From Xestospongia bergquistia (lineage: Eukaryota; Porifera; Demospongiae; Haplosclerida; Petrosiidae): a stretch of 64,000 bases of DNA. The translations under genes and the position numbers were made by a program. The stretch lies in the NCBI GenBank assembly GCA_963965975.1, contig OZ014416.1, positions 3,844,001 to 3,908,000 on the forward strand, in the 5' to 3' direction. The notes below the pieces were generated by a model. That model was not told the origin of the DNA and did not search any database. It saw nothing but the letters and a program-made list of their open reading frames with translations. Positions 1-60,212 of the stretch are shown here, piece after piece (position 1 is the first letter of the stretch; each line of letters starts with the position of its first letter).

Positions 1-164
1 TGTATGCACTAAGAAGGCTCTTATAAGGGAGCTGACCATTTATATGTATGCACCTAGAATTGCTGGTCCCTAATCGCTGGGACTTCACTCCTATAACTGG
101 AGTAGTCCACCAACTTATTGTTCAATTAACTACTGACTAGCAATGAAGGTGATTACTTTGGGTG
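1..164. other. Unassigned left-edge sequence
   Basis: I see no recognisable gene, repeat unit or RNA here. The word TGTATGCA occurs twice (near 1 and 45), which is not enough to call a repeat. It probably flanks, or is a degraded lead-in to, the integrase fossil that follows. Confidence 0.4.
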
Positions 165-1122
165 TGAGAGGCCATGGTCGACCACCTTTAGACATATGTG
201 AGGATTAAGTTAGATTCTTGGATTTAAATAAACTTAGATTGCAGCACTGATAGGTTACTCTACACATATGATTCAAAGAAGACTAACAGAATTTGGAATT
301 GAATGTAATTGATTCAGTGAAATAACTAATCAACATTTGCATGACCTGGTTAACGAGATTGTAACACTCTTACCTGCTTGTGGTATACGATCAATACAGA
401 CCCTGCTTAAAGTTAATGGTGAGATATTGCAAAGAGAAAGAGTAAAAGAGTCTATTCATTGTGTTGACCCCTTGGGATTTGAAACTAGGCTACATAGAAC
501 TTTTCATTGTCAGCAATATAATGTTGGCAGATTGATGGATATCACAAAGTTATGAGGCGGCTATTAGTAATACATGAAGGAATAGATGGATATAGCCGAG
601 TTCCAGTTTACTTAAAAGTAGCCTCTACTAACAAAGCTGTGACTGCTTTAATGCATTTCTGCAAGGTGTCAAGTGTTATGGATTACCATCTCATGTACAT
701 TCGGAGTGTGGAGGAGAAAATATTCTAGTTGGACACTTCATGCTTGAGCATTTCAAGAAAGGTCTGGAGAGAGGAAGTTTCATCTGTGGTTGAAGTGTCC
801 ACAACCAAAGAATAGAACGTTTATGGAGAGAAGGTTGCATTAGATTCTATTACTTCCTGTTCTATTCACTGGAAGAAGTAGGTCTATTAGATTCAGTTAG
901 TGAAGTTGATATATGTGCCCTCAACTTTTTGTTTATCTACCAATTATACAATCTCAAGTAGACATGTTTCATGAGGCATGGTGTAATCATCCTCTACGTA
1001 CAGCACACAACCAAACACCACATCAGCTATGGGTTCTGAGAATGGCTCAAGCTAGGATGGAAACACCACAAACAGTTACAGAAACATTTCCCCCTTTTTT
1101 TGAAAATATGAATCCCTTCTAA
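165..1122 (+). pseudogene. Broken rve/DDE-type integrase fossil
   Basis: Fossil of a mobile-element integrase with an RNase H-like (rve) catalytic core, of the type seen in many copies in sponge, cnidarian and fish genomes. The clearest similarity runs from about 262 to 1122, with weaker similarity back to about 165. Segments that I recognise from the family are a CGIRSIQTLLKVNGE-like stretch followed by VDPLGF near 375-480, a VHNQRIERLWRE-like motif near 793-833, and the C-terminal WCNHPLRTAHNQTPHQLW motif near 978-1035. The order of these motifs is that of the intact family, so it looks like one collapsed copy rather than scattered pieces. It is clearly broken, with at least four interruptions, which suggests an old insertion. 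I found no long terminal repeats or inverted repeats flanking it in the sequence available, so the parent element (LTR-like, Ginger-like or other) is not settled. Confidence 0.75.
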
Positions 1123-1296
1123 AATATAAACAGATTGAATGTAAAATAAAAAAAATTACCAAAAATTTATCAGAAGTATACAAGCATTAGATAGACAATA
1201 CTATCAAAAAACATAAAATAAAATCAACATAAAATGAATACAAAGAGCATAAGATAAACTATCAAGAACATAAATATATATTGAATGTAACATTAA
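1123..1296. other. AT-rich spacer between two pseudogenes
   Basis: This short A-rich stretch lies between the end of the integrase fossil and the C-terminal end of the HECT pseudogene, which converge on it. It presumably includes the 3' untranslated region of the former HECT gene on the - strand. I saw no canonical AATAAA signal on that strand. Confidence 0.4.
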
Positions 1297-2607
1297 TCAA
1301 ACTACACCAAACCCACCATGACAAGTAAAGAAAGGCCTGATCAATTTTGAGCTTAAATTGATTATAGTCATTGTAGTATCATGTATGTAGAGTGAGTGAG
1401 AAAGTACATGTAGAGGCCGTTGGATAAACTACATTGTGACTGAATGACAGGGTTGGATCTATATCAAACCCGAATGGAGGTACAGCTGATGAACCAGTAA
1501 AGAAACACAGAATGTCCTTTAAGGAAACTTCATTACTCCCACCTGTAAGGAATGTAAAAGTATATTGAAAGTATCTAAACGGTGTATGCAAATTTTATAA
1601 CTAATTTTTGTGAATGTATACATTAAGTGACTAATGAAATGATATCAAAGAAATCACTAAAACAATAGAGGCTGAAAGCTACCTCAATTATGTAATTACT
1701 TAGTGAGCTATAAACCACAAGGCCAACCCCATCACCAGAAAGTATTGACATTGGCAAATGAATACAATACAAGGTTGTTGTTTTATTTTTAATAAATAGG
1801 ATGACTAAACTACTTACTTTTGCAATCCTCTAAATAGTCACCAAAAAGTATGTACGTTGACATGTCTTTCTCCTTTCTATGACTTGAATTCTCAGAGTAG
1901 TGAACTCGGTTTTGAAACAGTGACTAGATACTCACTATTAAAAATAAAAGAGCAAACCATTATCGCAAAGCACATGCACTATCGACTTTTCTATTCAATC
2001 AATACCTAGAGTCAATTCAGTAGGGTATGAAGGAGCAGTGAAGAGGGGTTCTAGACTATTCGGGTGAGACTTCATGGCATCTGCCACACCAAGAGTTTAT
2101 AGACCATTCAATAGTTGATCAAGCTCAGCTTTTGATTGAAGTATTGTATAGTACATTGTGATACTATGGACTAAGGTAGAACGATCTTCAAGTGTCAATG
2201 TTGTGGGACTCTTGTTGAACCCACAGTAAGACAGTACTTCTATTGCATCCATGGATTGGACTTGGATCTGCTCGTTGCTGACAGCATCGATCATCTAAGA
2301 CAACAATTAACAAGTCTATAAATAACAGAGATAGGAAAAGTGTCTCTAACTGCTAATAAGTAGGAAAATTGTAAACAAATTAAAAAGTTTTATTGTGGGA
2401 ATAGTACTGTCATTTTTCTTTTAACATAAGTTCAGGTTAGTTCAGTAAATCTAAGCTGAATACACTCTTAAATTAGAAGTACCTATAACATAGTCATCAT
2501 GACTTATTTACCTTGCTTACTAACAGATTGATGTCATAATCAGGTATAATAGTATAGTCAATAGTGTTTCGTTTAGCTCCATGCCACAAAGGTAATCGTA
2601 AACCCCT
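1297..2607 (-). pseudogene. HECT-type E3 ubiquitin ligase pseudogene (G2E3-like), 3' exons
   Basis: Remains of a host gene for a HECT-domain ubiquitin ligase, an enzyme that takes ubiquitin onto a cysteine and passes it to substrate proteins. Four exons can be read: 2607-2512, 2294-2006, 1934-1818 and 1542-1297. Introns are 217, 71 and 275 bp, with GT/AG ends and matching phases (0, 1, 1). Exon 2 gives a segment like AELDQLLNGL then TLGVADAMKSHPN and PLF; exon 3 gives VHYSENSSHRKEKD and GDYLEDCK; exon 4 gives FFTGSSAVPPFGF, then PTASTC with the catalytic-type Cys codon at 1408-1406, and DYNQFKLKID, ending HGGFGVV and a stop at 1299-1297. That ending is typical of HECT C-lobes. Decay is clear: in-frame stops at 2099-2097, 1926-1924 and 1381-1379, and a frameshift near 1320-1330 before the last seven residues. 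A TAA at 2610-2608 bounds the first exon call. A second donor (GTAAGC at 2520) is possible for that exon. Family assignment is firm; the closer G2E3-like label is from memory of similar invertebrate proteins. Confidence 0.8.
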
Positions 2608-3099
2608 TTACAGATATAAGGATAGCCTGATCCTTCCTTGACTAAGAGATACAGATATCAAATATACTAATTTCATTTCTGTTGAAGTAGACTTAAGAGA
2701 AAAGAGAGCGTGATAGAGAGAACACATCAGTTGTGTAGGTAGCAGGTAGGGGGACCAGTTGTGATAAAAATAGTAGGAGACCCAGCGTCATTCATAGCTG
2801 ACAAAAAGAGGAAGTAAATAATAAATGGATGGATTAATAGATAGGTAGAAAATTGCTAAAAACATGCACAAATTATAATAATTACTTTTCATAATTATCA
2901 GTCTCCAATGTTGTGGTGTGATATGTTTTTACCAGTTTGATAGACATTCTATTGTTAGGGAGCAAATCGCTCGCCAGTTTGAATATTTTCACTTTGATTT
3001 CCCATAACTCCCTCAACCCACTTATCAGAACAAGACTCAGGGAGCAACAAAGGACTACACACATGAGTATCAAGTAGATCATTTAACAAAAACCACTAT
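2608..3099 (-). other. Possible further HECT-gene remnants, unproven
   Basis: No gene can be firmly called. On the - strand there is an open stretch from 3082 to 2882 whose second half (RELWEIKVKIFKLASDLL and what follows) reads like coding sequence. It ends at a plausible GTAATT donor (2885-2884), and a good acceptor, a pyrimidine tract then CAG, ends at 2798. The reading after that acceptor does not match HECT sequence that I recognise, and the phase-consistent frame soon stops. This may be an upstream exon of the decayed ligase or chance. The satellite starts abruptly at the right edge of this stretch. Confidence 0.25.
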
Positions 3100-19600: not shown

Positions 19601-22299
19601 GGCACTAAATAAATAAACAGCTATTAGCAATTTAGTAAGTTAGTTTGCATTAACGCTCTAAAGTCTTTAAGTTAAAGACTTTAGAAGGTTTAGACTATTC
19701 AGAGAAGTTATAATGTAAACTGCTCAGTCTAAAGGACTTTATGGCACTAACTAAATAAACAGCTATTAACAGTTTAGTAAGTTAGTTTGCATTAACGCTC
19801 TAAAGTCTTTAAGTTAAAGACTTTAGAAGGTATAGACTATTGAGAGAAGTTTATAAAGTGAACTGCTCAGTCTAAAGGACTTTTTGGCACTAACTAAATA
19901 AGCAGGTATTAACAGTTTAGTAAGTTAGTGGCATTAACGCTCTAAAGTCTTTAAGTTAAGGACTTTAGAAGGTTTAGACTATTGAGAGATGTTCATAAAG
20001 TAAACTGCTCAGTCTAAAGGACTTTATGGCATTATCTAAGTAAACAGCTATTAATAGTTTAGTAAGTTAGTTTGCATTAATGCTCTAAAGTCTTTAAGTT
20101 AAAGTCTTTAGAAGGCTTAGACTTTTGAGAGAAGTTTATAAGGTAAACTGCTCAGTCGAAAGGACTTTATGGCACTAACTAAATAAACAGTTGTTAACAG
20201 TTTAGTAAGTTAGTTTGCATTAACGCTCTAAACTCTTTAAGTTAAAGACTTTAGAAGGTTTAGACTATTGAGAGAGGTTTATAAAGTAAACTGCTCAGTC
20301 TAAAGGACTTTATGGCACTAACTAAGTAAACAGCTATTAACAGTTTAGTAAGTTAGTTTGCATTAACGCTCTAAAGTCTTTAAATTAAAGACTTTAGAAG
20401 GTTTAGACTATTGAGAGAAGTTTATAAAGTAAAATGCTCAGTCTAAAAAATTTTATGGCACTAACTAAGTAAACAGCTATTAACAGTTTAGTAAGTTAGT
20501 TTGCATTAACGCTCTAGAGTCTTTAAGTTAAAGACTTTAAAGTTTTAAACTATTTAGAGAAGTTTATAAAGTAAACTGCTCAGTATAAAGGACTTTATGG
20601 CACTAACTAAATAACAGCTATTAACAGTTTAATAAGTTAGTCTGCATTAACGCTCTAAAGTCTTTAAGTTAAAGACTTTAGAAGGTTAACACTATTGAGA
20701 GAAGTTTATAAAGTAAACTGCTCAGTCTAAAGGACTTTATGGCACTAACTAAGTAAACAGCTATTAACAATTTAGCAAGTTTGTTTGCATTAACGCTCTA
20801 AAGTCTTTAAATTAATGACTTTAGAAGGTTTAGACTATATAAAGAAGTTTATAAATTAAACTGCTCAGTCTAAAGGACTTTATGGTACTAAGTAAATAAA
20901 CAGCTATTAACAGTTTAGTAAGTTAGCTTGCATTAACACTCTAAAGTCTTTAAGTTAAAGACTTTAGTAGGTTTAGACTATTGAGAGAAGTTTATAAAGT
21001 AAACTGCTCAGTTATAGGACTTTATGGCACTAACTAAGTGAACAGCTATTAACAGTTTAGTAAGTTAGTTTGCATTAACGCTCTACAGTCTTTAAGTGAA
21101 AGACTTTAGAAGGTTTAGACTATTGAGAGAAGTTTATAAAGTAAACTGCTCAGTCTAAAGGACTTTATGGCACTAACTAAGTAAACAGCTATTAACAGTT
21201 TAGTAAGTTAGTTTGCATTAACGCTCTAAAGTCTTTAAGTTAAAGACTTCAGAAGGTTTAGACTATTGAGAGAAGTTTATAAAGTAAACTGCTCAGTCTA
21301 AAGGACTTTATGGCACTAACTATATAAACAGCTATTAACAGTTTAGTAAGTTAGTTTGCATTAACGCTCTAAAGTCTTTAGTTAAAGACTTTAGAAGGTT
21401 TAGACTATTGAGACTAGTTTATAAAGTAAACTGCTCAGTCTAAAGGACTTTATGGCACTAACTAAATAAACAGCTATTAACAGTTCAGTAAGTTAGTTTG
21501 CATTAACGCAATAAAGTCTTTAAGTTAAAGACTTTAGCAGGTATAGACTATTGAGAGAAGTTTATAAAGTAAAATGCTCAGTCTAAAGGACTTTTTGGCA
21601 CTAACTAAATAAACAGCTATTAACAGTTTAGTAAGTTAGTTGGCATTAACGCTCTCAAGTCTTTAAGTTAAAGACTTTAGAAGGTTTAGACTATTGAGAG
21701 AAGTTTATAAAGTAAACTGCTCAGTCTAAAGGACTTTTTGGCACTAACTAAATAAACAGCTATTAACACTTTAGCAAGTTTCTTTGTATTAACGCTCAAA
21801 AGTCTTTAAATTAATGACTTTAGAAGGATTAGACTATATAAAGGACTTTATAAAGTAAACAGCTCAGTCTAAAGGACTTTATGGCACTAACCAAATAAAC
21901 AGCTATTAACAGTTTAGTAAGTTAGTTTGCATTAACGCTCTAAAGTCTTTAAATAAAAGACTTTAATAGGTTTAGACTATTGATAGAAGTTTATAAAGTA
22001 AACTGCTCAGTCTAAGGACTTTATGGCACTAACTAAGTAAACAGCTATTAACAGTTTAGTAAGTTAGTTTGCATTAACGCTCTAAAGTCTTTAAGTTAAA
22101 GAGTTTAGAAGGTTTAGACTATTGAGAGAAGTTTATAAAGTAAACTGCTCAGTCTAAAGGACTTTTTGGCACTAACTAAATAAACAGCTATTAACAGTTT
22201 AGTAGCTTAGTTTGCATTAACGCTCTAAAGTCTTTAAGTTAAAGACTTTAGAAGGTTTAGACTATTGAGAGAAGTTTATAAAGTAAACTGCTCAGTCTA

Positions 22300-22345
22300 A
22301 AGGACTTTATGGCACTAACTAAATTAAAGTTTTAAACTATTTAGA
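22300..22345 (+). repeat. Half-deleted monomer, copy 1
   Basis: The unit jumps from ACTAACTAAAT directly to TAAAGTTTTAAACTATTT, losing about 70 bases that include the right arm of dyad block 3 and the palindrome left arm. The undeleted parental right side is recognisable near 20533 (TTTAAAGTTTTAAACTATTT). The same junction recurs about 932 bp downstream. Confidence 0.75.
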
Positions 22346-23231
22346 GAAGTTTATAAAGTGAACTGCTCAGTATAAAGGACTTAATGGCACTAACTAAATA
22401 AACAGCTATTAACAGTTTGGTAAGTTAGTTTGCAATAACGCTCTAAAGTCTTTAAGTTAAAGACTTTAAAATGTATACACTATTGAGAGATGTTTATAAA
22501 GTAAACTGCTCAGTCTAAAGGACTTTATGTCACTAACTAAATAAACAGCTATTAACAGTTTAGTAAGTTAGTTTGCATTAACGCTCTAAAGTCTTTAAGT
22601 TAAAGACTTTAAAAGGTTTAGACTATTTAGAGAAGTTTATAAAGTATACTGCTTAGTCTAAAGGACTTTTTGGCACTAACTAAATAAACAGCTATTAACA
22701 CTTTAGCAAGTTTGTTTGTATTAACGCTCTAAAGTCTTTAAATTAATGACTTTAGAAGGTTTAGACTATATAAAGGAGTTTATAAAGTTAACTGCTCAGT
22801 CTAAAGGACTTTATGGCACTAACTAAATAAACAGCTATTAACAGTTTAGTAAGTTAGTTCGCATTAACGCTCTAAAGTCTTTAAATAAAAGACTTTAATA
22901 GGTTTAGACTATTGATAGATGTTTATAAAGTAAACTGCTCAGTCTAAAGGACTTTATGGCACTAACTAAGTAAACAGCTATTAACAGTTTAGTAAGTTAG
23001 TTAGCATTAACGCTCTAAAGTCTTTAAGTTAAAGAGTTTAGAAGGTTTAGACTATTGAGAGAAGTTTATAAAGTAAACTGCTCAGTCTAAAGGACTTTTT
23101 GGCCCTAACTATATAAACAGCTATTATAGTTTAGTAACTTAGTTTGCATTAACGCTCTAAAGTCTTTAAGTTAAAGACTTTAGAAGGTTTAGACTATTTA
23201 GAGAAGTTTATAAAGTAAACTGCTCAGTCTA

Positions 23232-23277
23232 AAGGACTTTAGGGCACTAACTAAATTAAAGTTTGAAACTATTTAGA
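23232..23277 (+). repeat. Half-deleted monomer, copy 2
   Basis: It carries the same truncation junction as the unit at about 22320, with one base differing (AAAGTTTGAAAC instead of AAAGTTTTAAAC). The offset of about 932 bp equals seven monomers less the deletion, so the rare deletion was copied with its surroundings. Confidence 0.75.
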
Positions 23278-25121
23278 GAAGTTTATAAAGTGAACTGCTC
23301 AGTATAAAGGACTTAATGGCACTAGCTAAATAAACAGCTATTAACAGTTTGGTAAGTTAGTTTGCATTAACGCTCTGAAGTCTTTAAGTTAAAGACTTTA
23401 AAAGGTATACACTATTGAGAGAAGTTTATAAAGTAAACTGCTCAGTCTAAAGGACTTTATGTCACTAACTAAATAAACAGCTATTAACAGTTTAGTAAGT
23501 TAGTTTGCATGAACGCTCTAAAGTGTTTAAGTTAAAGACTTTAGAAGGTTTAGACTATTGAGAGAAGTTTATAAAGTAAACTGCTTAGTCTAATGGACTC
23601 TATGGCACTAACTAAGTAAACAGCTATTAACAGTTTAGTAAGTTAGTTTGCATTAACGCTCTAAAGTCTTTAAGTTAAAGACTTTAGAAGGTTTAGACTA
23701 TTGAGAGAAGTTTATAAAGTAACCTGCTCAGTCTAAAGAACTTTATGGCACTAACTAAATAAACAGCTATTAACAGTTTAGTAAGTTAGTTTGCATTAAT
23801 GCTCTAAAGTCTTTAAGTTAAAGACTTTAGAAGGTTTAGACTATTGAGAGAAGTTTATAAAGTAAAGTACTTAGTCTAAAGGACTTTATGGCACTAACTG
23901 AATTAACAGCTATTAACAGTTTAGTAAGTTAGTTTGCATTAACTCTCTAAAATCTTTAAGTTAAAGACTTTAGAAGGTTTAGACTATTGAGAGAAGTTTA
24001 TAAAGTAAACTGCTCAGTCTAAAGGACTTTATGGCACTAACTAAATAAGCAGCTAATAACAGTTTAGTAAGTTAGTTTGCATTAACGCTCTAAAGTCTTT
24101 AAGTTAAAGACTTTAGAAGGTTTAGACTATTCAGAGAAGTTTATAAAGTAAACTGCTCAGTCTAAAGGACTTTATGGCTCTAACTAAATAAACAGCTATT
24201 AACAGTTTAGTAAGTTAGTTTGCATTAACGCAATAAAGTCTTTAAGTTAAAGACTTTAGAAGGTTTAGACAATTGAGAGAAGTTTATAAAGTAAACTTCT
24301 TAGTCTAAATGACTCTATGGCACTAACTAAGTAAAGGGCTATTAACAGTTTAGTAAGTTAGTTTGCATTAACGCTCTAAAGTCTTTAACTTAAAGACTTT
24401 AGAAGGTTTAGACTATTGACTGAAGTTTATAAAGTAAACTACTTAGTCTAAAGGACTTTATGGCAATAACTGAATTAACATCGATTAACAGTTTAGTAAG
24501 TTAGTTTGCATTAACTCTCTAAAATCTTTAAGTTAAAGACTGTAGAAGGTTTAGACTTTTGAGAGAAGTTTATAAAGTAAACTGCTCAGTCTAAAGGTCT
24601 TTATGGCACTAACTAAATAAACAGCTATTAACAGTTTAGTAAGTTAGTTTGCATTAACGCTCTAAAGTCTTTAAGTTAAAGACTTTAGAAGGTTTAGACT
24701 ATTCAGAGAATTTTATAAAGTAAACTGCTCAGTCTAAAGGACTTTATGGCTCTAAATAAATAAACAGCTATTAACAGTTTAGTAAGTTAGTTTGCATTAA
24801 CGCTCTAAAGTCTTTAAGTTAAAGACTTTAGTAGGTTCAGACTATTGAGAGAAGTTTATAAAGTAAACTGCTCAGTCTAAAGGACTTTATGGCACTAACT
24901 AAATAAAGAGCTATTAACAGTTTAGTAAGTTAGTTTGCATTAACGCTCTAAAGTCTTTAAGTTAAAGACTTTAGAAGGTTTAGACTATTGAGAGAAGTTT
25001 ATAAAGTAAACTGCTCAGTCTAAAGGACTTTATGGCACTAACTAAATAAACAGATATTAACAGTTTAGTAAGTTAGTTTGCATTAACGCTCTAAAGTCTT
25101 TAAGTTAAAGACTTTAGAAGG

Positions 25122-25167
25122 TTTAGACTATTGAGAGAAGTTTATAAAGTAAACTGCTCAGTCTAAA
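25122..25167. repeat. Nested dyad block 2 of the monomer
   Basis: Outer arms TTTAGACT and AGTCTAAA (unit positions 16-23 and 54-61) enclose inner arms AGTTTA and TAAACT (33-38 and 44-49) around a 5-base loop. The spacers between outer and inner arms differ (9 and 4 bases), so the structure would be a bulged hairpin. Both arm pairs are present in most monomers; the inner pair is the more constant. Confidence 0.8.
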
Positions 25168-25179
25168 GGACTTTATGGC

Positions 25180-25220
25180 ACTAACTAAATAAACAGCTAT
25201 TAACAGTTTAGTAAGTTAGT
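25180..25220. repeat. Dyad block 3 of the monomer
   Basis: Arms ACTAACTAAATAAAC and GTTTAGTAAGTTAGT (unit positions 74-88 and 100-114) are reverse complements with 2 mismatches in 15, around an 11-base spacer AGCTATTAACA. The AAAT within the left arm is the sequence duplicated by the transposon insertion described at 48482. Confidence 0.8.
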
Positions 25221-25233
25221 TTGCATTAACGCT

Positions 25234-25260
25234 CTAAAGTCTTTAAGTTAAAGACTTTAG
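25234..25260. repeat. 27-bp odd palindrome spanning each monomer junction
   Basis: Arms CTAAAGTCTTTAA and TTAAAGACTTTAG are perfect reverse complements around a single G, covering unit positions 128-143 and 1-11 of the next unit. The same palindrome, exact or with one or two changes, recurs about every 143 bp across the array. Common variants change the centre (AAGATAAAG, or AAATTAATGAC) or the left arm (GCAATAAAGTC, CTATAAAGTC). It could be a binding site for a dimeric protein or extrude as a hairpin; neither is shown here. Confidence 0.9.
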
Positions 25261-26299
25261 AAGGTTTAAACTATTCAGAGAAGTTTATAAAGTAAACTGC
25301 TCAGTCTAAAGGACTTTACGGCTCTAACTAAATAAACAGCTATTAACAGTTTAGTAAGTTAGTTGGCATTAACGTAGTAAAGTCTTTAAGTTAAAGACTT
25401 TTGTAGGTATAGACTATTGAGAGAAGTTTATAAAGTAAACTACTCAGTCTAAAGGACTTTTTTGCACTAACTAAATAAACAGCTATTAACAGTTTAGTAG
25501 GTTAGTTGGCATTAACGCTCTAAAGTCTTTAAGTTAAGGACTTTAGAAGTTTAGACTATTGAGAGTGGTTTATAAAGTAAACCGCTCAGTCTAAAGGACT
25601 TTATGGCACTAACTATATAAACAGCTATTAACAGTTTAGTAAATTAGTTTGCATTAACGCTCTAAAGTCTTTAAGTTAAAGACTATAGTAGGTTTAGACC
25701 ATTGAGAGAAGATTATAAAGTAAACTGTTCAGTCTAAAGGACTTTATGGCACTAACTAAATAAACAGCTATTAACAAATTAGCAAGTTTGTTTGCATTAA
25801 CGCTCTAAAGTCTTTAAGTTAATGACTTTGGAAGGTTTAGAATATATATAGAAGTTTATAAAGTAAACTGCTCAGTCTAAAGGACTTTATGGCACTAACT
25901 AAATAAGGAGCTATTAACAGTTTAGTAAGTTAGTTTGCATTAACGTTGTAAAGTCTTTAAGTTAAAGACTTTAGTAGGTTTAGAATATTGAGAGAAGTTT
26001 ATAAAGTAAACTGCTCAGTCTAAAGGACTTTATGGCACTAACTAAGTAAACAGCCATTAACAGTTTAGTAAGTTAGTTGGTATTAACGCTCAAAAGTCTT
26101 TAAGTTAAAGACTTTAGAAGGTTTAGACAATTGAGAGAAGAGTATAAAGTAAACTGCTCAGTCTAAAGGACCTTATGGCACTAACTGAATAAACAGCTAT
26201 TAACAGTTTAGTAGTTAGTTTGCATTAACGCTCTAAAGTCTTTAAGTTAAAGACTTTAGAAGGTTTAGACTATTTAGAGAAGTTTATAGGGTAAACTGC

Positions 26300-45445: not shown

Positions 45446-48400
45446 AAGTAAACTGCTTAGTTTAAAGGACTTTATGGCACTAATTAAATAAACAGCTATT
45501 AACAGTTTAGTAAGTTCGTTTGCATTAACGCTATAAAGTCATTAAGTTAAAGACTTTAGAAGGTTTAGACTATTGAGAGAAGTTTATAAAGTAAACTGCT
45601 CAGTCTAAAGGACTTTATGGCACTAACTAAGTAAACAGCTATTAACAGTTTAGTAAGTTAGTTTCCATTAACGCTCTAAAGTCTTTAAGATAAAGACTTT
45701 AGAATGTTTAGACTATTGAGAGAAGTTTATAAAGTAAACTGCTCAGTCTAAAGGACTTTATGGCACTAATTAAATAAACAGCTATTAACAGTTTAGTAAG
45801 TTAGTTTGCATTAAGTCTCTAAAGTCATTAAGTTAAAGACTTTAGAAGGTTCAGAGAAGTTTATAAAGTAAACTGCTTAGTCTAAATGACTTTATGGTAC
45901 TAACTAAATAAAAAGCTATTAACAGTTTAGTAAGTTTGTTTGCATTAACACTCTAAAGTCTTTAAGTTAAACACTTTAGAAGGTTTAGACTATTCAGAGA
46001 ATTTTATAAAGTAAACTGCTTAGACTAAAGGACACTATAGCACTAATTAAGTAAACAGCTATTAACAGTTTAGTAAGTTAGTTTGCATTAACGATCTAAA
46101 GTCTTTAAGATAAAGACTTTAGAAGGTTTAGACTATTGAGAGAAGTTTATAAAGTAAACTGCTAAGTCTAAAGGACTTTATGGCACTAACTAAGTAAACA
46201 GCTATTAACAGTTTAGTAAGTTAGTTTGCATTAACGCTCTAAAGTCTTTAAGTTAAAGACTTTAGAAGGTTTAGACTATTCAGAGAAGTTTATAAAGTAA
46301 GCTGCTCAGTCTAAAGGACTTTATGGCACTAACTAAGTAAACAGCTATTAACAGTTTAGTAAGTTAGTTTGCATTAACGCTCTAAAGTCTTTAAGTTAAA
46401 GACTTTAGAAGGGTTAGACTATTAAGAGAAGTTTATAAAGTAAACTGCTAAGTCTAAAGGACTTTATGGCACTAACTAAATAAGCAGCTATTAACAGTTT
46501 AGTAAGTTAGTTTGCATTAACGCTCTAAAGTCTTTAAGATAAAGACTTTAGAATGTTTAGGCTATTGAGAGAAGTTTATAAAGTAAACTGTTCAGTCTAA
46601 AGGACTTTATGGCACTAACTAAATAAACAGCTATTAACAGTTTAGTAAGTTAGTTTGCATTAACGCTCTAAAGTCTTTAAGTTAAATACTGTAGAAGGTT
46701 TAGACTATTGAGAAAAGGTTATAAAGTAAACTGCTCAGTCTAAAGGACTTTATGGCATTAACTAAATAAACAGCTATTAACAGTTTAGTAAGTTAGTTTG
46801 CATTAACGCAATAAGGTCTTTAAGTTAAAGACTTTAGTAGGTATAGACTATTAAAAGAAGTTTATAAAGTAAACTGCTCAGTCTAAAGGACTTTTTGCTA
46901 CGAACTAAATAAACAGCTATAAACAGTTTAGTAAGTTACTTTGCATTAACGCTCTAAAGTCTTTAAGTTAAAGACTTTAGAAGGTTTAGACTATTGAGAG
47001 AAGTTTATAAAGTAAACTGCTCAGTCTAAAGGACTTTATGGCACTAACTAAATAAACAGCTATTAACAGTTTAGTAAGTTTGTTTGCATTAACGCTCTAA
47101 AGTCTTCAAGTTAAAGACTTTAGAAGGTTTAGACTATTCGGAGAAGTTTATAAAGTAAGTGCTTAGTCTAAAGGAGTTTATGGCACTCACTAAATAAACA
47201 GCTACTAACAGTTTAGTAAGTTAGTTTGCATTAACGCTCTAAAGTCTTTAAGTTAAAGACTTTAGAAGGTTTATACTATTGAGAGATGTTTATAAACTAA
47301 ACTGCTCAGTCTAAAGGACTTTATGGCACTAACTAAGTAAACAGCTATTAACAGTTTAGTAACTTAGTTTGCATTAACGCTCTAAAGTCTTTAAGAAAAG
47401 ACATTAGAAGGTTTAGGCTATTGAGAGAAGTTTATAAAGTAAACTGTTCAGTCTAAAGGACTTTATGGCACTAACTAAATAAACAGCTATTAACAGTTTA
47501 GTAAGTTAGTTTGCATTAACGCTCTCAAGTCCTTAAGTTAAAGACTTTAGAAGGTTTAGACTATTGAGAGAAGTTTATAAAGTAAACTGCTCAGTCTAAA
47601 GGACTTTATAGCACTAACTAAATAAACAGCTATTAACAGTTTATTAAGTTAGTTTGCATTAACGCTCTAAAGTCTTTAAGTTAAAGACTTTAGAAGGTTT
47701 AGACTATTGACAGAAGTTTATAAAGTAAACTGCTAAGTCTAAAGGACTTTATGGCACTAAATAAATAAACAGCTATTAACAGTTTAGTAAGTTAGTTTGC
47801 ATTAACGCTCTAAAGTCTTTAAGTTAAAGACTTTAGAAGGTTTAGACTATTGAGAAAAGTTTATAAAGTAAACTGCTCAGTCTAAAGGACTTTATGGCAT
47901 TAACTAAATAAACAGCTATTAACAGTTTAGTAAGTTAGTTTGCATTAACGCAATAAGGTCTTTAAGTTAAAGACTTTAGTAGGTATAGACTATTGAGAGA
48001 AGTTTATATAGTAAACTGCTCAGTCTAAAGGACTTTTTGCTACTAACTAAATAAACAGCTATAAACAGTTTAGTAAGTTAGTTTGCATTAACGGTCTAAA
48101 GTCTTTAAGTTAAAGACTTCAGAAGGTTTAGACTATTGACAGTAGTTTATAAAGTAACCCGCTTAGTCTAAAGGACTTTATGGCACTAACTAAATGAACA
48201 GCTATTAACAGTTTAGTAAGTTAGTTTGCATTAACGCTCTGAAGTCTTTAAGTTAAAGACTTTAGAAGGTTTAGACTGTTCAGAGAAGTTTATAAAGTAA
48301 ACTGCTCAGTCTAAAGGACTCTATGGCACTAACTAAGTGAACAGCTATTAACAGTTTAGTAAGTTAGTTTGCATTAACGCTCTAAAGTCTTTAAAATAAA

Positions 48401-50945
48401 GACTTTAGAAGGTTTAGACTATTCAGAGAAGTTTATAAAGTAAAATGCTCAGTCTAAAGGACTTTATGGCTCTAACTAAATGTGACCGGATATGCAAAAA
48501 GGGACCACTTGAGTCATTTCTGTCATTTTCACTTTTTCATACCATTTTAAAGTGTAGATAATTCTGAATTGTTTGATACCTTGGATAAATGCATGCGTTG
48601 CTCAAGACACGAGATATAAACGGAAATAGAGTGGCTACTACCAAAAATTAATTTTGAGATAAGTGGAATTTAATTTTCCACCCCCGCATCCCGTACACTA
48701 ATATTTGATAACGCGAACGCTTCTACGTGCAAAGCTAGAAAGAACTTTCGCTTTTTAGACGCTTCAAAATGACTGTCAGGAACTATTCTCTTCGTTTTTT
48801 GGTTTAACTCAAATTCTCAAAAAGATTGAAACCATCACTTTTTCTGTCCATACTGAAATTTTTGTTTTTGACAGAAGTGGTCCCTTTTCGCAAATCCGGT
48901 CACAAATAAACAGCTATTAACAGTTTAGTAAGTTAGTTTGCATTAACGCTCTAAAGTCTTTAAGTTAAAGACTTTAGAAGATTAAGACTATTGAGAGAAG
49001 TTTATAAAGTAAACTGTTTAGTCTAAAGGACTTTATGGCACTAACTAAGTAAACAGCTATTAACAGTTTAGTAAGTTAGTTTGCATTAACGCTATAAAGT
49101 CTTTATGTTAAAGACTTCAGAAGGTTTAGACTATTGAGAGAAGTTTATAAAGTAAACTGCACAGTCTAAAGGACTTTATCGCACTAACTAAATAAACAGC
49201 TATTAACAGTTTAGTAAGTTAGTTTGCATTAGCGCTCTAAAGTCTTTAAGTTAAAGACTTTAGAAGGTTTAGACTATTGAGAGAGTGTATAAAGTAAACG
49301 GCTTAGTCTAAAGGACTTTAAGGCTCTAACTAAATAAACAGCTATTAACAGTTCAGAAAGTTAGTTTGCATTAACGCTCTAAACTCTTTAAGTTAAAGAC
49401 TTTAGAAGGTTTAGACAATTGAGAGAAGTTTAAAAAGTAAACTGCTTAGTCTAAAAAACTTTACGGCACTAATTAAAGAAACAGCTATGAACAGTTTAGT
49501 AAGTTTGTTTGCATTAACGCTCTAAAGTCTTTAAGTTAAAGACTTTAGAAGGTTTAGACTATTCAGAGAACTTTATAAAGTAAACTGCTTAATCTAAAGG
49601 ACTTTATGGCACTAACTAAATAAACAGCTATTAACAGTTTAGTAAGTTAGTTTGCATTAACGCTATAAAGTCTTTAAGATAAAGACTTTAGAAGGTTTAG
49701 ACTATTGAGAGAAGTTTATAAAGTAAACTGCTCAGTCTAAAGGACTTTATGGCACTAACTAAATAAACAGCTATTAACAGTTTAGTAAGTTAGTTTGCAT
49801 TAACGCTCTAAAGTCTTTAAGATAAAGACTTTAAAAGGTTTAGAATATTCAGAGGAGTTTACAAAGTAAACTGCTTAGTCTAAAGGACTTTATGGCACTA
49901 ACTAAATAAACAGCTATTAACAGTTTAGTAAGTTAGTTTGCATTAACGCTCTAAACTCTTTAAGTTGAAGACTTTAGAAGGTTTAGAGTATTCAGAGAAG
50001 TTTATGAAGTAAACTGCTCAGTCTAAAGGACTTTATGGCACTAACTAAATAAACAGCTATTAACAATTGAGTAAGTTAGTTTGTATTAACGCAATAAAGT
50101 CTTTAAGTTAAAGACTTTAGAAGGTTCAGACTATTGAGAGAAGTTTGTAAAGTAAAATGCTCAGTCTAAAGGACTTTATGGCACTAACTAAATTAACAGC
50201 TATTAACAGTTTAGTAAGTTAGTTTGTATTAACGCTCTAAAGCCTTTAAGTTCAATACTTTAGAAGATTAAGACTATTGAGAGAAGTTTATAAAATAAAC
50301 TGTTTAGTCTAAAGGACTTTATGGCACTAACTAAGTAAGAAGCTATTAACAGTTTAGTAGTTAGTTTGCATTAACTCTATAAAGTGTTTATGTTAAAGAC
50401 TTCAGAAGGTTTAGACTGCTGAGAGAAGTTTATAAAGTAAACTGCTCAGTCTAAAGGACTTTATGGCACTAACTTAATAAACAGCTATTAAGAGCTTAGT
50501 AAGTTAGTTTGCATTAGTGCTCTAAAGTCTTTAAGTTAAAGACTTTAGAAGGCTTAGACTATTGAGAGAGTTTATAAAGTAAACGGCTTAGTCTAAAGGA
50601 CCTTAAAGCTCTAACTAAATAAACAGCTATTAACAGTTGGGAAAGTTAGTTTGCATTAACGCTCTAAACTCTTTAAGTTAAAGACTTTAGAAGGTTTAGA
50701 CAATTGCGTGAAGTTTAAAAAGTAAACTGCTTAGTCTAAAGGACTTTATGGCACTAATTAAATAAACAGCTATTAACTGTTTAGTAAGTTTGTTTGCATT
50801 AACGCTCTAAAGTCTTTAAGTTAAAGACTTTAGAAGGTTTAGACTATTCAGAGAAGTTTATAAAGTAAACTGCTTAGTCTAAAGGACTTTATGGCACTAA
50901 CTAAATAAACAGCTATTAACAGTTTAGTAAGTTAGTTTGCATTAA
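45446..50945 (+). repeat. Large array duplication, copy 1 (offset 9,267 bp), carrying MITE
   Basis: From about 45446 the sequence of monomer variants matches that starting near 54713 almost base for base, with a 9,267-bp offset. Upstream of this point the two diverge (ACTATTCAGAGAATTTTATAA versus a unit with AATTGAGAGAAGTTTAAAAA). Shared rare features include the shortened unit near 45811, the MITE, and units with AACAGTTGGGAAAG. A single-base deletion near 50355 shifts the offset to 9,268 afterwards. The match is interrupted after about 50945 by a 1-kb tandem block present only in copy 2, then resumes more weakly (50941 corresponds to 61209). Confidence 0.85.
48482..48903. mobile_element. 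MITE-like DNA transposon, copy 1 (422 bp)
   Basis: A non-satellite insert in the array with terminal inverted repeats of 29 bp (48482-48510 and 48875-48903), 27 of 29 matching, beginning GTGACCGGAT and ending ATCCGGTCAC. It is flanked by a direct AAAT (48478-48481 and 48904-48907), and removing the element and one AAAT restores a normal monomer (CTAACTAAATAAACAG). That is the mark of a true transposition with a 4-bp target duplication. It has no coding capacity and is much richer in CpG than the satellite. The superfamily is not clear: a 4-bp duplication fits several cut-and-paste groups. Just inside both repeats the word CTGTCA recurs, 9 bases further in on the left. Confidence 0.92.
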
Positions 50946-54000: not shown

Positions 54001-55800
54001 ATAAACTGTTTAGTCTAAAGGACTTTATGGCACTAACTAAGTAAGAAGCTATTAACAGTTTAGTAAGTTAGTTTGCATTAACTCTATAAAGTGTTTATGT
54101 TAAAGACTTCAGAAGGTTTAGACTACTGAGAGAAGTTTATAAAGTAAACTGCTCAGTCTAAAGGACTTTATGGCACTAACTTAATAAACAGCTATTAAGA
54201 GCTTAGTAAGTTAGTTTGCATTAACGCTCTAAATTCTTTAATTTAAAGACTTAAGAAGATTTAGACTATTGAGAGAATTTTATAAAGTAAACTGCTCAGT
54301 GTAAAGGATTTTATGGCACTTGCTAAATAAACAGCTATTAACAGTTTAGTTAGTTAGTTTGCATTAACGCTCTAAAGTCTTTAAGTTAAAGACTTTAGAA
54401 GGTTTAGACTATTGAGAGAAGTTTATAAAGTAAACTGCTCAGTCTAAAGGACTTTATCGCACTAACTAAATAAACAGCTATTAACAGTTTAGTTAGTTAG
54501 TTTGCATTAGCGCTCTAAAGTCTTTAAGTTAAAGACTTTAGAAGGTTTAGACTATTGAGAGAGTTTATAAAGTAAACGGCTTAGTCTAAAGGACTTTAAG
54601 GCTCTAACTAAATAAACAGCTATTAACAGTTCAGAAAGTTAGTTTGCATTAACGCTTTAAACTCTTTAAGTTAAAGACTTTAGAAGGTTTAGACAATTGA
54701 GAGAAGTTTAAAAAGTAAACTGCTTAGTTTAAAGGACTTTATGGCACTAATTAAATAAACAGCTATTAACAGTTTAGTAAGTTCGTTTGCATTAACGCTA
54801 TAAAGTCATTAAGTTAAAGACTTTAGAAGGTTTAGACTATTGAGAGAAGTTTATAAAGTAAACTGCTCAGTCTAAAGGACTTTATGGCACTAACTAAGTA
54901 AACAGCTATTAACAGTTTAGTAAGTTAGTTTCCATTAACGCTCTAAAGTCTTTAAGATAAAGACTTTAGAATGTTTAGACTATTGAGAGAAGTTTATAAA
55001 GTAAACTGCTCAGTCTAAAGGACTTTATGGCACTAATTAAATAAACAGCTATTAACAGTTTAGTAAGTTAGTTTGCATTAAGTCTCTAAAGTCATTAAGT
55101 TAAAGACTTTAGAAGGTTCAGAGAAGTTTATAAAGTAAACTGCTTAGTCTAAATGACTTTATGGCACTAACTAAATAAAAAGCTATTAACAGTTTAGTAA
55201 GTTTGTTTGCATTAACACTCTAAAGTCTTTAAGTTAAACACTTTAGAAGGTTTAGACTATTCAGAGAAGTTTATAAAGTAAACTGCTTAGACTAAAGGAC
55301 ACTATAGCACTAATTAAGTAAACAGCTATTAACAGTTTAGTAAGTTAGTTTGCATTAACGATCTAAAGTCTTTAAGATAAAGACTTTAGAAGGTTTAGAC
55401 TATTGAGAGAAGTTTATAAAGTAAACTGCTAAGTCTAAAGGACTTTATGGCACTAACTAAGTAAACAGCTATTAACAGTTTAGTAAGTTAGTTTGCATTA
55501 ACGCTCTAAAGTCTTTAAGTTAAAGACTTTAGAAGGTTTAGACTATTCAGAGAAGTTTATAAAGTAAGCTGCTAGGTCTAAAGGACTTTATGGCACTAAC
55601 TAAGTAAACAGCTATTAACAGTTTAGTAAGTTAGTTTGCATTAACGCTCTAAAGTCTTTAAGTTAAAGACTTTAGAAGGGTTAGACTATTAAGAGAAGTT
55701 TATAAAGTAAACTGCTAAGTCTAAAGGACTTTATGGCACTAACTAAATAAGCAGCTATTAACAGTTTAGTAAGTTAGTTTGCATTAACGCTCTAAAGTCT
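51030..55800 (+). repeat. 2,421-bp tandem duplication, two copies
   Basis: Sequence from about 51030 to 53370 repeats at about 53450 to 55790 with an offset of 2,421 bp, confirmed by three markers: AGGTTTAGAATATTCAGAGG at 51121 and 53542, AACTTAATAAACAG at 51757 and 54178, and TTAAGTCTCTAAAGTC at 52657 and 55078. The length is 17 monomers less about 10 bases, because the repeat contains a unit with a 9-base deletion (GGTTCAGAGAAG in place of the usual GGTTTAGACTATTCAGAGAAG). Confidence 0.8.
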
Positions 55801-58800
55801 TTAAGATAAAGACTTTAGAATGTTTAGGCTATTGAGAGAAGTTTATAAAGTAAACTGTTCAGTCTAAAGGACTTTATGGCACTAACTAAATAAACAGCTA
55901 TTAACAGTTTAGTAAGTCAGTTTGCATTAACGCTCTAAAGTCTTTAAGTTAAATACTGTAGAAGGTTTAGACTATTGAGAAAAGGTTATAAAGTAAACTG
56001 CTCAGTCTAAAGGACTTTATGGCATTAACTAAATAAACAGCTATTAACAGTTTAGTAAGTTAGTTTGCATTAACGCAATAAGGTCTTTAAGTTAAAGACT
56101 TTAGTAGGTATAGACTATTAAAAGAAGTTTATAAAGTAAACTGCTCAGTCTAAAGGACTTTTTGCTACGAACTAAATAAACAGCTATAAACAGTTTAGTA
56201 AGTTACTTTGCATTAACGCTCTAAAGTCTTTAAGTTAAAGACTTTAGAAGGTTTAGACTATTGAGAGAAGTTTATAAAGTAAACTGCTCAGTCTAAAGGA
56301 CTTTATGGCACTAACTAAATAAACAGCTATTAACAGTTTAGTAAGTTTGTTTGCATTAACGCTCTAAAGTCTTCAAGTTAAAGACTTTAGAAGGTTTAGA
56401 CTATTCAGAGAAGTTTATAAAGTAAGTGCTTAGTCTAAAGGAGTTTATGGCACTCACTAAATAAACAGCTACTAACAGTTTAGTAAGTTAGTTTGCATTA
56501 ACGCTCTAAAGTCTTTAAGTTAAAGACTTTAGAAGGTTTATACTATTGAGAGATGTTTATAAACTAAACTGCTCAGTCTAAAGGACTTTATAGCACTAAC
56601 TAAGTAAACAGCTATTAACAGTTTAGTAACTTAGTTTGCATTAACGCTCTAAAGTCTTTAAGAAAAGACATTAGAAGGTTTAGGCTATTGAGAGAAGTTT
56701 ATAAAGTAAACTGTTCAGTCTAAAGGACTTTATGGCACTAACTAAATAAACAGCTATTAACAGTTTAGTAAGTTAGTTTGCATTAACGCTCTCAAGTCCT
56801 TAAGTTAAAGACTTTAGAAGGTTTAGACTATTGAGAGAAGTTTATAAAGTAAACTGCTCAGTCTAAAGGACTTTATAGCACTAACTAAATAAACAGCTAT
56901 TAACAGTTTATTAAGTTAGTTTGCATTAACGCTCTAAAGTCTTTAAGTTAAAGACTTTAGAAGGTTTAGACTATTGACAGAAGTTTATAAAGTAAACTGC
57001 TAAGTCTAAAGGACTTTATGGCACTAAATAAATAAACAGCTATTAACAGTTTAGTAAGTTAGTTTGCATTAACGCTCTAAAGTCTTTAAGTTAAAGACTT
57101 TAGAAGGTTTAGACTATTGAGAAAAGTTTATAAAGTAAACTGCTCAGTCTAAAGGACTTTATGGCATTAACTAAATAAACAGCTATTAACAGTTTAGTAA
57201 GTTAGTTTGCATTAACGCAATAAGGTCTTTAAGTTAAAGACTTTAGTAGGTATAGACTATTGAGAGAAGTTTATATAGTAAACTGCTCAGTCTAAAGGAC
57301 TTTTTGCTACTAACTAAATAAACAGCTATAAACAGTTTAGTAAGTTAGTTTGCATTAACGGTCTAAAGTCTTTAAGTTAAAGACTTCAGAAGGTTTAGAC
57401 TATTGACAGTAGTTTATAAAGTAACCCGCTTAGTCTAAAGGACTTTATGGCACTAACTAAATGAACAGCTATTAACAGTTTAGTAAGTTAGTTTGCATTA
57501 ACGCTCTAAAGTCTTTAAGTTAAAGACTTTAGAAGGTTTAGACTGTTCAGAGAAGTTTATAAAGTAAACTGCTCAGTCTAAAGGACTCTATGGCACTAAC
57601 TAAGTGAACAGCTATTAACAGTTTAGTAAGTTAGTTTGCATTAACGCTCTAAAGTCTTTAAAATAAAGACTTTAGAAGGTTTAGACTATTCAGAGAAGTT
57701 TATAAAGTAAAATGCTCAGTCTAAAGGACTTTATGGCTCTAACTAAATGTGACCGGATATGCAAAAAGGGACCACTTGAGTCATTTCTGTCATTTTCACT
57801 TTTTCATACCATTTTAAAGTGTAGATAATTCTGAATTGTTTGATACCTTGGATAAATGCATGCGTTGCTCAAGACACGAGATATAAACGGAAATAGAGTG
57901 GCTACTACCAAAAATTAATTTTGAGATAAGTGGAATTTAATTTTCCACCCCCGCATCCCGTACACTAATATTTGATAACGCGAACGCTTCTACGTGCAAA
58001 GCTAGAAAGAACTTTCGCTTTTTAGACGCTTCAAAATGACTGTCAGGAACTATTCTCTTCGTTTTTTGGTTTAACTCAAATTCTCAAAAAGATTGAAACC
58101 ATCACTTTTTCTGTCCATACTGAAATTTTTGTTTTTGACAGAAGTGGTCCCTTTTCGCAAATCCGGTCACAAATAAACAGCTATTAACAGTTTAGTAAGT
58201 TAGTTTGCATTAACGCTCTAAAGTCTTTAAGTTAAAGACTTTAGAAGATTAAGACTATTGAGAGAAGTTTATAAAGTAAACTGTTTAGTCTAAAGGACTT
58301 TATGGCACTAACTAAGTAAACAGCTATTAACAGTTTAGTAAGTTAGTTTGCATTAACGCTATAAAGTCTTTATGTTAAAGACTTCAGAAGGTTTAGACTA
58401 TTGAGAGAAGTTTATAAAGTAAACTGCACAGTCTAAAGGACTTTATCGCACTAACTAAATAAACAGCTATTAACAGTTTAGTAAGTTAGTTTGCATTAGC
58501 GCTCTAAAGTCTTTAAGTTAAAGACTTTAGAAGGTTTAGACTATTGAGAGAGTGTATAAAGTAAACGGCTTAGTCTAAAGGACTTTAAGGCTCTAACTAA
58601 ATAAACAGCTATTAACAGTTCAGAAAGTTAGTTTGCATTAACGCTCTAAAGTCTTTAAGTTAAAGACTTTAGAAGGTTTAGACAATTGAGAGAAGTTTAA
58701 AAAGTAAACTGCTTAGTCTAAAAAACTTTACGGCACTAATTAAAGAAACAGCTATGAACAGTTTAGTAAGTTTGTTTGCATTAACGCTCTAAAGTCTTTA

Positions 58801-60212
58801 AGTTAAAGACTTTAGAAGGTTTAGACTATTCAGAGAACTTTATAAAGTAAACTGCTTAATCTAAAGGACTTTATGGCACTAACTAAATAAACAGCTATTA
58901 ACAGTTTAGTAAGTTAGTTTGCATTAACGCTATAAAGTCTTTAAGATAAAGACTTTAGAAGGTTTAGACTATTGAGAGAAGTTTATAAAGTAAACTGCTC
59001 AGTCTAAAGGACTTTATGGCACTAACTAAATAAACAGCTATTAACAGTTTAGTAAGTTAGTTTGCATTAACGCTCTAAAGTCTTTAAGATAAAGACTTTA
59101 AAAGGTTTAGAATATTCAGAGGAGTTTACAAAGTAAACTGCTTAGTCTAAAGGACTTTATGGCACTAACTAAATAAACAGCTATTAACAGTTTAGTAAGT
59201 TAGTTTGCATTAACGCTCTAAACTCTTTAAGTTGAAGACTTTAGAAGGTTTAGAGTATTCAGAGAAGTTTATGAAGTAAACTGCTCAGTCTAAAGGACTT
59301 TATGGCACTAACTAAATAAACAGCTATTAACAATTGAGTAAGTTAGTTTGTATTAACGCAATAAAGTCTTTAAGTTAAAGACTTTAGAAGGTTCAGACTA
59401 TTGAGAGAAGTTTGTAAAGTAAAATGCTCAGTCTAAAGGACTTTATGGCACTAACTAAATTAACAGCTATTAACAGTTTAGTAAGTTAGTTTGTATTAAC
59501 GCTCTAAAGCCTTTAAGTTCAATACTTTAGAAGATTAAGACTATTGAGAGAAGTTTATAAAATAAACTGTTTAGTCTAAAGGACTTTATGGCACTAACTA
59601 AGTAAGAAGCTATTAACAGTTTAGTAAGTTAGTTTGCATTAACTCTATAAAGTGTTTATGTTAAAGACTTCAGAAGGTTTAGACTACTGAGAGAAGTTTA
59701 TAAAGTAAACTGCTCAGTCTAAAGGACTTTATGGCACTAACTTAATAAACAGCTATTAAGAGCTTAGTAAGTTAGTTTGCATTAGTGCTCTAAAGTCTTT
59801 AAGTTAAAGACTTTAGAAGGCTTAGACTATTGAGAGAGTTTATAAAGTAAACGGCTTAGTCTAAAGGACCTTAAAGCTCTAACTAAATAAACAGCTATTA
59901 ACAGTTGGGAAAGTTAGTTTGCATTAACGCTCTAAACTCTTTAAGTTAAAGACTTTAGAAGGTTTAGACAATTGCGTGAAGTTTAAAAAGTAAACTGCTT
60001 AGTCTAAAGGACTTTATGGCACTAATTAAATAAACAGCTATTAACTGTTTAGTAAGTTTGTTTGCATTAACGCTCTAAAGTCTTTAAGTTAAAGACTTTA
60101 GAAGGTTTAGACTATTCAGAGAAGTTTATAAAGTAAACTGCTTAGTCTAAAGGACTTTATGGCACTAACTAAATAAACAGCTATTAACAGTTTAGTAAGT
60201 TAGTTTGCATTA
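54713..60212 (+). repeat. Large array duplication, copy 2, carrying MITE
   Basis: This is the partner of 45446-50945 at an offset of 9,267 bp. Its left part overlaps the second 2,421-bp copy, so the two duplication events are nested. Divergence from copy 1 is low, only scattered single-base differences, which points to a recent event relative to the spread among ordinary monomers. Confidence 0.85.
57749..58170. mobile_element. MITE-like DNA transposon, copy 2 (422 bp)
   Basis: Same length as the element at 48482 and, by reading, identical to it, with the same inverted repeats (57749-57777 and 58142-58170) and the same AAAT flanks (57745-57748 and 58171-58174). The flanking monomers carry the same rare variants on both sides (TTATGGCTCTAACTAAAT to the left, TTAGAAGATTAAGACTATTG in the unit to the right). 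This copy therefore arose by duplication of array DNA, not by a second transposition. Confidence 0.92.

Follow-up and report, generated by a model that had tools for sequence, protein, structure and literature searches.

The 143-bp satellite array

From base 3099 to its end at base 64000, the window (the whole stretch of 64,000 bases analysed here) is filled by a 143-bp satellite arranged head to tail. Tandem Repeats Finder reported 426.4 copies of period 143 with 89% matches, and a wrap-around alignment divided the array into 427 full rows and one partial row at the window end, a few of the 427 corresponding to fragments of a 422-base insert or to monomers shortened by deletions. The consensus of this alignment was identical to the starting consensus of the 143-bp monomer. 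Random row pairs of the array share a mean identity of 0.90. Such a long head-to-tail array of near-identical units is the arrangement expected of satellite DNA. An anchor search of both strands, allowing up to 4 substitutions, found no reversed unit in the window. Inverted subarrays, i.e. macro-dyads of the Tribolium type, were not found in the window either, and the GC skew was positive in 32 of 32 bins. The features of the array and of the monomer described in the sequence-only reading are as follows.

3099-64000, + strand: 143-bp satellite array (Tandem Repeats Finder, two-strand anchor search, wrap-around alignment)
25106-25248, + strand: monomer of the sequence-only reading, in the frame set by the first base of the array
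25122-25167: block B, nested inverted repeats, 46 bp
25180-25220: block C, 41-bp inverted repeat, 15-base arms with 2 mismatches
25234-25260: block A, 27-bp palindrome CTAAAGTCTTTAAGTTAAAGACTTTAG with perfect 13-base arms

The three dyad blocks lie where the sequence-only reading had placed them and together (27 + 46 + 41) occupy 114 of the 143 bases, about 80% of the unit. Palindrome A, whose preceding copy is found at 25091-25117, consists of two TAAAGNCTTTA words in a row, each of which is itself a dyad, and one additional T-A pair lengthens it to 29 bp (25233-25261). Block B combines outer arms of 8 bases (25122-25129 and 25160-25167) with inner arms of 10 bases and 1 mismatch (25135-25144 and 25150-25159). 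Read directly, the consensus gives palindrome A 13 pairs (14 with the extra T-A), block B 17 and block C 16. Complete pairing in single rows, counted over 426 rows including the aberrant ones, was present in 144 rows for A (13 of 13 pairs), 95 rows for B (17 of 17) and 144 rows for C (16 of 16). Symmetry is a property of the consensus more than of the individual copies.

The first base of the array, 3099, lies two bases beyond the centre of palindrome A. An array boundary set by the palindrome is a weak proposal, since about 15 of the 143 positions are equally near one of the three centres and the coincidence may be due to chance.

Symmetry compared with shuffled monomers

A symmetry beyond that of shuffled monomers was borne out by DNA folds as well as by inverted-repeat scores. 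Folded as DNA, one monomer reached -23.8 kcal/mol compared to -12.1 kcal/mol (sd 2.4) in 200 dinucleotide shuffles, none of which was as stable (z -4.9). For the consensus, z values of -5.5, -5.6 and -5.2 were obtained against shuffles keeping 2-, 3- and 4-letter words, respectively (0 of 300 each). The three best separate inverted repeats had a summed score of 30, whereas the means of these shuffles were 17.4, 18.3 and 19.6 (0 of 300 each). Since the excess persists against all three types of shuffles, the symmetry is more than an effect of repeated short words. When the blocks were folded singly, A and B exceeded 500 of 500 of their own shuffles and C was equalled by 7 of 500. The serial hairpins envisaged in the sequence-only reading are predicted by folding for the monomer as single-stranded DNA.

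Substitutions in arms and spacers

For this comparison 426 rows were placed in a frame that keeps each block whole. After 11 rows with more than 20 differences had been dropped, 415 rows were left, representing 337 distinct sequences. Of the dropped rows, that at 4385 had 21 differences, four (22097-23172) surround two 75-base units, and six came from the insert, at 48397-48694 and 57664-57961. The 75-base units themselves (approximately 22240-22400 and 23172-23330) apparently go back to a common 68-base deletion that removed the right half of C together with palindrome A.

Among the 337 distinct rows, substitution amounted to 0.0448 in the 90 paired columns and 0.0445 in the 53 others (Mann-Whitney p 0.49), and 75 of the 143 rotations of the mask did as well as the true mask of paired columns. 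The ratio of paired to other columns was 1.01 (95% interval 0.73-1.40), with 1.00-1.01 for each of A, B and C. Counted by approximate independent events it was 1.05 (0.87-1.26), with 0.90 for A, 1.12 for B and 1.10 for C, every interval including 1. The arms mutate as freely as the spacers, an outcome that the sequence-only reading had itself named as speaking against selection for symmetry. The proposed selection found no support: arms change as fast as spacers, and paired changes show no excess beyond one linked haplotype, at a power for detecting weak selection that is low because the copies are homogenised.

Several apparent differences between arms and spacers did not hold. A lower rate in the arms (0.044 vs 0.052), obtained with the insert pieces included, was gone once the 11 of 426 rows had been dropped and one A pair added. 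Indels driven by hairpins were rejected, since paired columns hold the starting point of 72 of the 106 distinct kinds of indel in the uncleaned rows (0.68 vs 0.66 expected). By row counts, complement-type transversions were more frequent in paired columns of the uncleaned rows, but this excess was absent from kinds found in 1-2 rows (19 of 86 paired vs 12 of 40 other) and slight in kinds found in 3-10 rows (52 of 124 vs 24 of 65), and it was dropped. When single substitutions of the uncleaned rows were relocated, pairs appeared to be kept slightly better in the array (3 of 200), an effect that disappeared when entire columns were taken as the units (256 of 1000).

The core of palindrome A varies less than the rest of the unit. 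Its 24 columns show 0.031 compared to 0.047 elsewhere (ratio interval 0.43-0.92). With base composition matched, p was 0.059 by frequency and 0.10 by events, for a core that was picked after the profile had been inspected. None of the 12 pairs of the core showed a double change on the cleaned rows. This hints at a mild constraint which, if real, would suit a protein-binding word equally well as a hairpin. The dyads might accordingly be read as binding sites for a dimeric protein, with words such as TAAAGNCTTTA, present twice in A, being conserved rather than the pairing. TAAAG and CTTTA add up to 7 copies per monomer and to 2.0 in shuffles (3 of 2000 shuffles reach 7), TAAAGNCTTTA has 637 matches in the window, and the mild conservation of the core is unaccompanied by pair-keeping double changes, all of which would be in line with protein binding. 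The word counts, however, come from a tandem array and are not independent, and the conservation of the core is of borderline significance. We know of no protein for the word TAAAGNCTTTA and regard a binding-site role of the dyads as quite improbable.

Paired changes

Covariation was evaluated over 45 pairs (14 in A, 17 in B and 14 in C, two pairs beside the centre of C being omitted). These showed 51 double changes compared to 39.5 expected; 28 were of the Watson-Crick type, and when 45 complementary column pairs were drawn at random 2000 times, 93 draws gave at least as many. Columns 8-36, which form the outermost pair of A, were the source of 25 of the 51 double changes and of 22 of the 28 Watson-Crick ones. 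Without this pair, 26 double changes are left compared to 33.0 expected, and only 6 of the 26 are Watson-Crick, compared to 39% over all complementary column pairs. The change of 8-36 from T-A to A-T is present in 28 of the 415 rows, in all 28 of which the adjoining pair 9-35 is broken, and it is associated with changes in columns 9, 41 and 93. It represents a subfamily haplotype. Before cleaning, 606 column associations had at least 4 joint changes; among the 45 strongest of them, 8-36 was the sole one in register.

A sample of 52 monomers (49 distinct), taken as every eighth of the 411 monomers of 140-145 bases, gave a similar picture. Only 2 of the 45 pairs had a kept change on both sides, which was reached by 464 of 500 shuffles, and six slid registers gave 6 to 11. 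Some summary measures leaned towards structure, namely the percentage paired (reached by 21 of 500 shuffles), the covariation score (22 of 500) and the number of cells changed on both sides (57 of 500). Of these cells, 8 of 9 belong to pair 8-36, and values of this kind can arise from relatedness of the sequences in the absence of structure. These measures may be due to the linked 8-36 haplotype. RNAalifold predicted 14 pairs in total, which include of the three dyads only the 5 inner pairs of A, and none of the 14 had a kept change on both sides. An absence of paired changes had also been named in the sequence-only reading as contrary to selection, and with it two of the three refuting outcomes listed there have come about. 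Over the 45 pairs there is no excess of them and no covariation that keeps base pairs, as used to recognise structured RNAs, with the exception of 8-36, which rides on a pair-breaking haplotype.

These data also bear on transcripts of the array, which might form a series of hairpins and either give rise to small RNAs or function as a structured RNA. Computed RNA folds would permit this: the linear consensus is predicted to reach -39.1 kcal/mol, and the circular monomer shows a stability excess with RNA energies that is smaller than that with DNA (z -3.3; 2 of 1000 dinucleotide shuffles as stable). Apart from the paired changes, the Rfam search is at odds with such a role, since no family reached its gathering score over the 64000 bases and 15 weak hits in 601 bases were all far below it. 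In addition, changes that leave a G-U pair on one or other strand are no commoner in the arms; in the uncleaned rows transitions made up 468 of 1452 substitutions in paired columns and 376 of 809 in the others. A function at the RNA level is very improbable.

Dyad density and a possible centromeric function

By a count of our own modelled on the EMBOSS settings quoted in the available text of PMC9070824, two stretches of the array had dyad densities of 0.75 and 0.69, their shuffles (5 each) 0.52 and 0.48, and the flank 0.25. The shuffled array is also dyad-dense, and hence part of the density is due to composition. No match to the 17-bp CENP-B box (up to 3 mismatches) or to its core (up to 1 mismatch) was found in the window, where few would be expected by chance.

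A published model (PMC9070824 and PMC8122249, in the portions available) would make this a centromeric satellite, whose dyads form cruciforms that assist in positioning centromeric chromatin, a role suggested for centromeres that are rich in dyads and have no CENP-B boxes. A dyad density above both shuffles and flank, the predicted DNA hairpins and the missing CENP-B box fit this model. Against it stand the lack of visible constraint on pairing in the array and the partly compositional nature of the density; furthermore, the accessible part of PMC9070824 describes the centromeres of human, great apes, mouse and D. melanogaster (except the Y) as showing no dyad excess. Centromeric function is unlikely, even if it comes first among the alternatives considered here. 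Its more far-reaching version, in which a dyad-dense satellite, having a conserved TAAAGTCTTTAAGTTAAAGACTTTA core and three hairpins over about 80% of its unit, would form regular cruciforms, three per nucleosome-sized unit, and so mark a CENP-B-box-free centromere in an animal lineage, is highly doubtful.

Repeat lags, duplication, insert and flank

Among lags of 1 to 149 monomers, a lag of 65 had the highest mean identity (0.918 vs 0.900 for random pairs). The array contains a duplication with an offset of 9267 bases (approximately 45571-50290 and 54838-59557), the two parts being more than 98.5% identical over 33 consecutive 143-base steps. The peak at 65 monomers is consistent with this duplication.

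A 422-base insert is located in block C of a monomer, at 48482-48903 and again at 57749-58170. It has 29-base terminal inverted repeats (27 of 29 matching) and a 4-base AAAT target duplication, and it resembles a non-autonomous DNA transposon. Its two copies lie in identical 620-base stretches; thus the insert was probably duplicated along with the array.

Bases 1-3098 do not belong to the satellite and contain remnants of decayed coding sequence. A fragmented and decayed rva_4 integrase core was detected at 522-1122 on the + strand in several frames (Pfam, four of the six frames sent, E 4e-12 to 2e-8), and a HECT-domain fragment at 1379-1594 on the - strand remained just under the cut-off (21.7 of 23.9 bits). 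Proteins of the rva_4 type occur in animals such as sponges and cnidarians. The array probably belongs to an animal, and the integrase would suggest one of these two groups.

That the monomer began as one end of a palindromic mobile element is given no direct support by these observations, as an element with terminal inverted repeats inserted in one monomer shows only that such elements exist in the genome. At 45 to 70 of the 143 columns the insert-bearing rows depart from the monomer, so that the insert shows no kinship with it, and neither Tandem Repeats Finder nor the anchor search found copies of the monomer in the 3098-base flank. A mobile-element origin is the least probable of the alternatives.

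Origin of the symmetry

What the array shows directly is that the unit is symmetric beyond its shuffles, that arms and spacers mutate alike and that paired changes are not in excess. In our interpretation the satellite probably inherited its symmetry passively, from a founder with three dyads that was copied by array turnover. The founding 143-bp monomer would already have possessed the three dyads and been rich in TAAAG and CTTTA, and would subsequently have been amplified head to tail. Unequal exchange and segmental duplication, to which the repeat lags and the 9.27-kb offset duplication point, may keep the copies alike, and with copies kept alike by turnover the symmetry would be inherited passively. 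Extruded hairpins, if any form, would be by-products or at most have aided the first amplification. All in all, the array looks like ordinary, though very symmetric, satellite DNA, presumably of the heterochromatin type.

How the founder acquired its symmetry was approached by self-comparison. Internal duplication was rejected, since the monomer compared with itself was no better than shuffles (direct orientation 226 of 500, reverse 131 of 500 as good). A common origin of B and C was likewise rejected (shuffles as good in 102 of 500 and 62 of 500), and for A versus B or C shuffles were as good in 171 to 410 of 500.

With several hundred copies and 45 predicted pairs, the satellite provides a clear test case within one array, and pairing shows no visible protection in it. 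Dyads kept in related species via compensated changes would make a strong case for a structural role.

Comparison with known satellites

The 143-bp satellite had no match in plasmids or phages, in collections in which eukaryotic DNA is hardly represented. Exact 27- and 30-base words were absent from viral contigs and a 37-base word from prokaryote genomes, again with hardly any eukaryotes among them. Our literature search found no paper on a 143-bp sponge satellite, on centromere tandem repeats in Porifera or on a palindromic 143-bp monomer.

Dyads and inverted repeats are named as features of various satellites in PMC8122249, and short inverted repeats are common in satellites according to the available text of PMC8122249, PMC8822648 and PMC7644632, the last of which reports them for about half of some studied satellites. 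PMC9070824 discusses, together with its limits, the idea that dyads contribute to specifying centromeres. Whether satellite dyads are selected or arise as by-products is debated in the parts of PMC9070824 and PMC8822648 available to us, and the test case described above relates to this debate.

With respect to size, the dyads discussed for centromeres are under 10 bp in the portions of PMC9070824 and PMC13081366 at hand, and the perfect 13-base arms of palindrome A exceed these. Longer inverted units have been published, namely 22 bp in Palorus subdepressus (PMC8122249, in part) and about 300 bp in TmSat2, one of the larger dyads described for Tribolium in the available text of PMC13081366. 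The dyad-rich centromeric satellites of the Kasinathan and Henikoff model (PMC9070824 and PMC8122249, as far as available) resemble the 143-bp repeat in their excess of inverted repeats and the absence of a CENP-B box. In contrast to them, the repeat described here has longer arms (13 perfect) and three dyads over 80% of the unit.

By its description in the accessible part of PMC8122249, the 72-bp satellite of Palorus subdepressus is likewise a short unit consisting largely of inverted repeats, and its 144-bp dimer comes near to 143 bp. Unlike that repeat, the 143-bp unit is without a significant duplication of two halves (226 of 500 shuffles as good). TmSat1 and TmSat2 of Tribolium madens (PMC13081366, in part) have dyads inside their subunits in common with our satellite, whereas their 600-bp and array-scale inversions have no counterpart in the window, where no reversed anchor was found. 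In two grasshoppers, inverted repeats were reported in all satellite families and attributed to stochastic processes (PMC8822648, available text). This view of stochastic evolution is close to the passive inheritance favoured here, although the symmetry of the 143-bp unit goes beyond shuffles. Dyad-rich satellites are a known kind of DNA, linked by others to centromeric cruciforms, and the 143-bp repeat is new to this kind only as a sequence.
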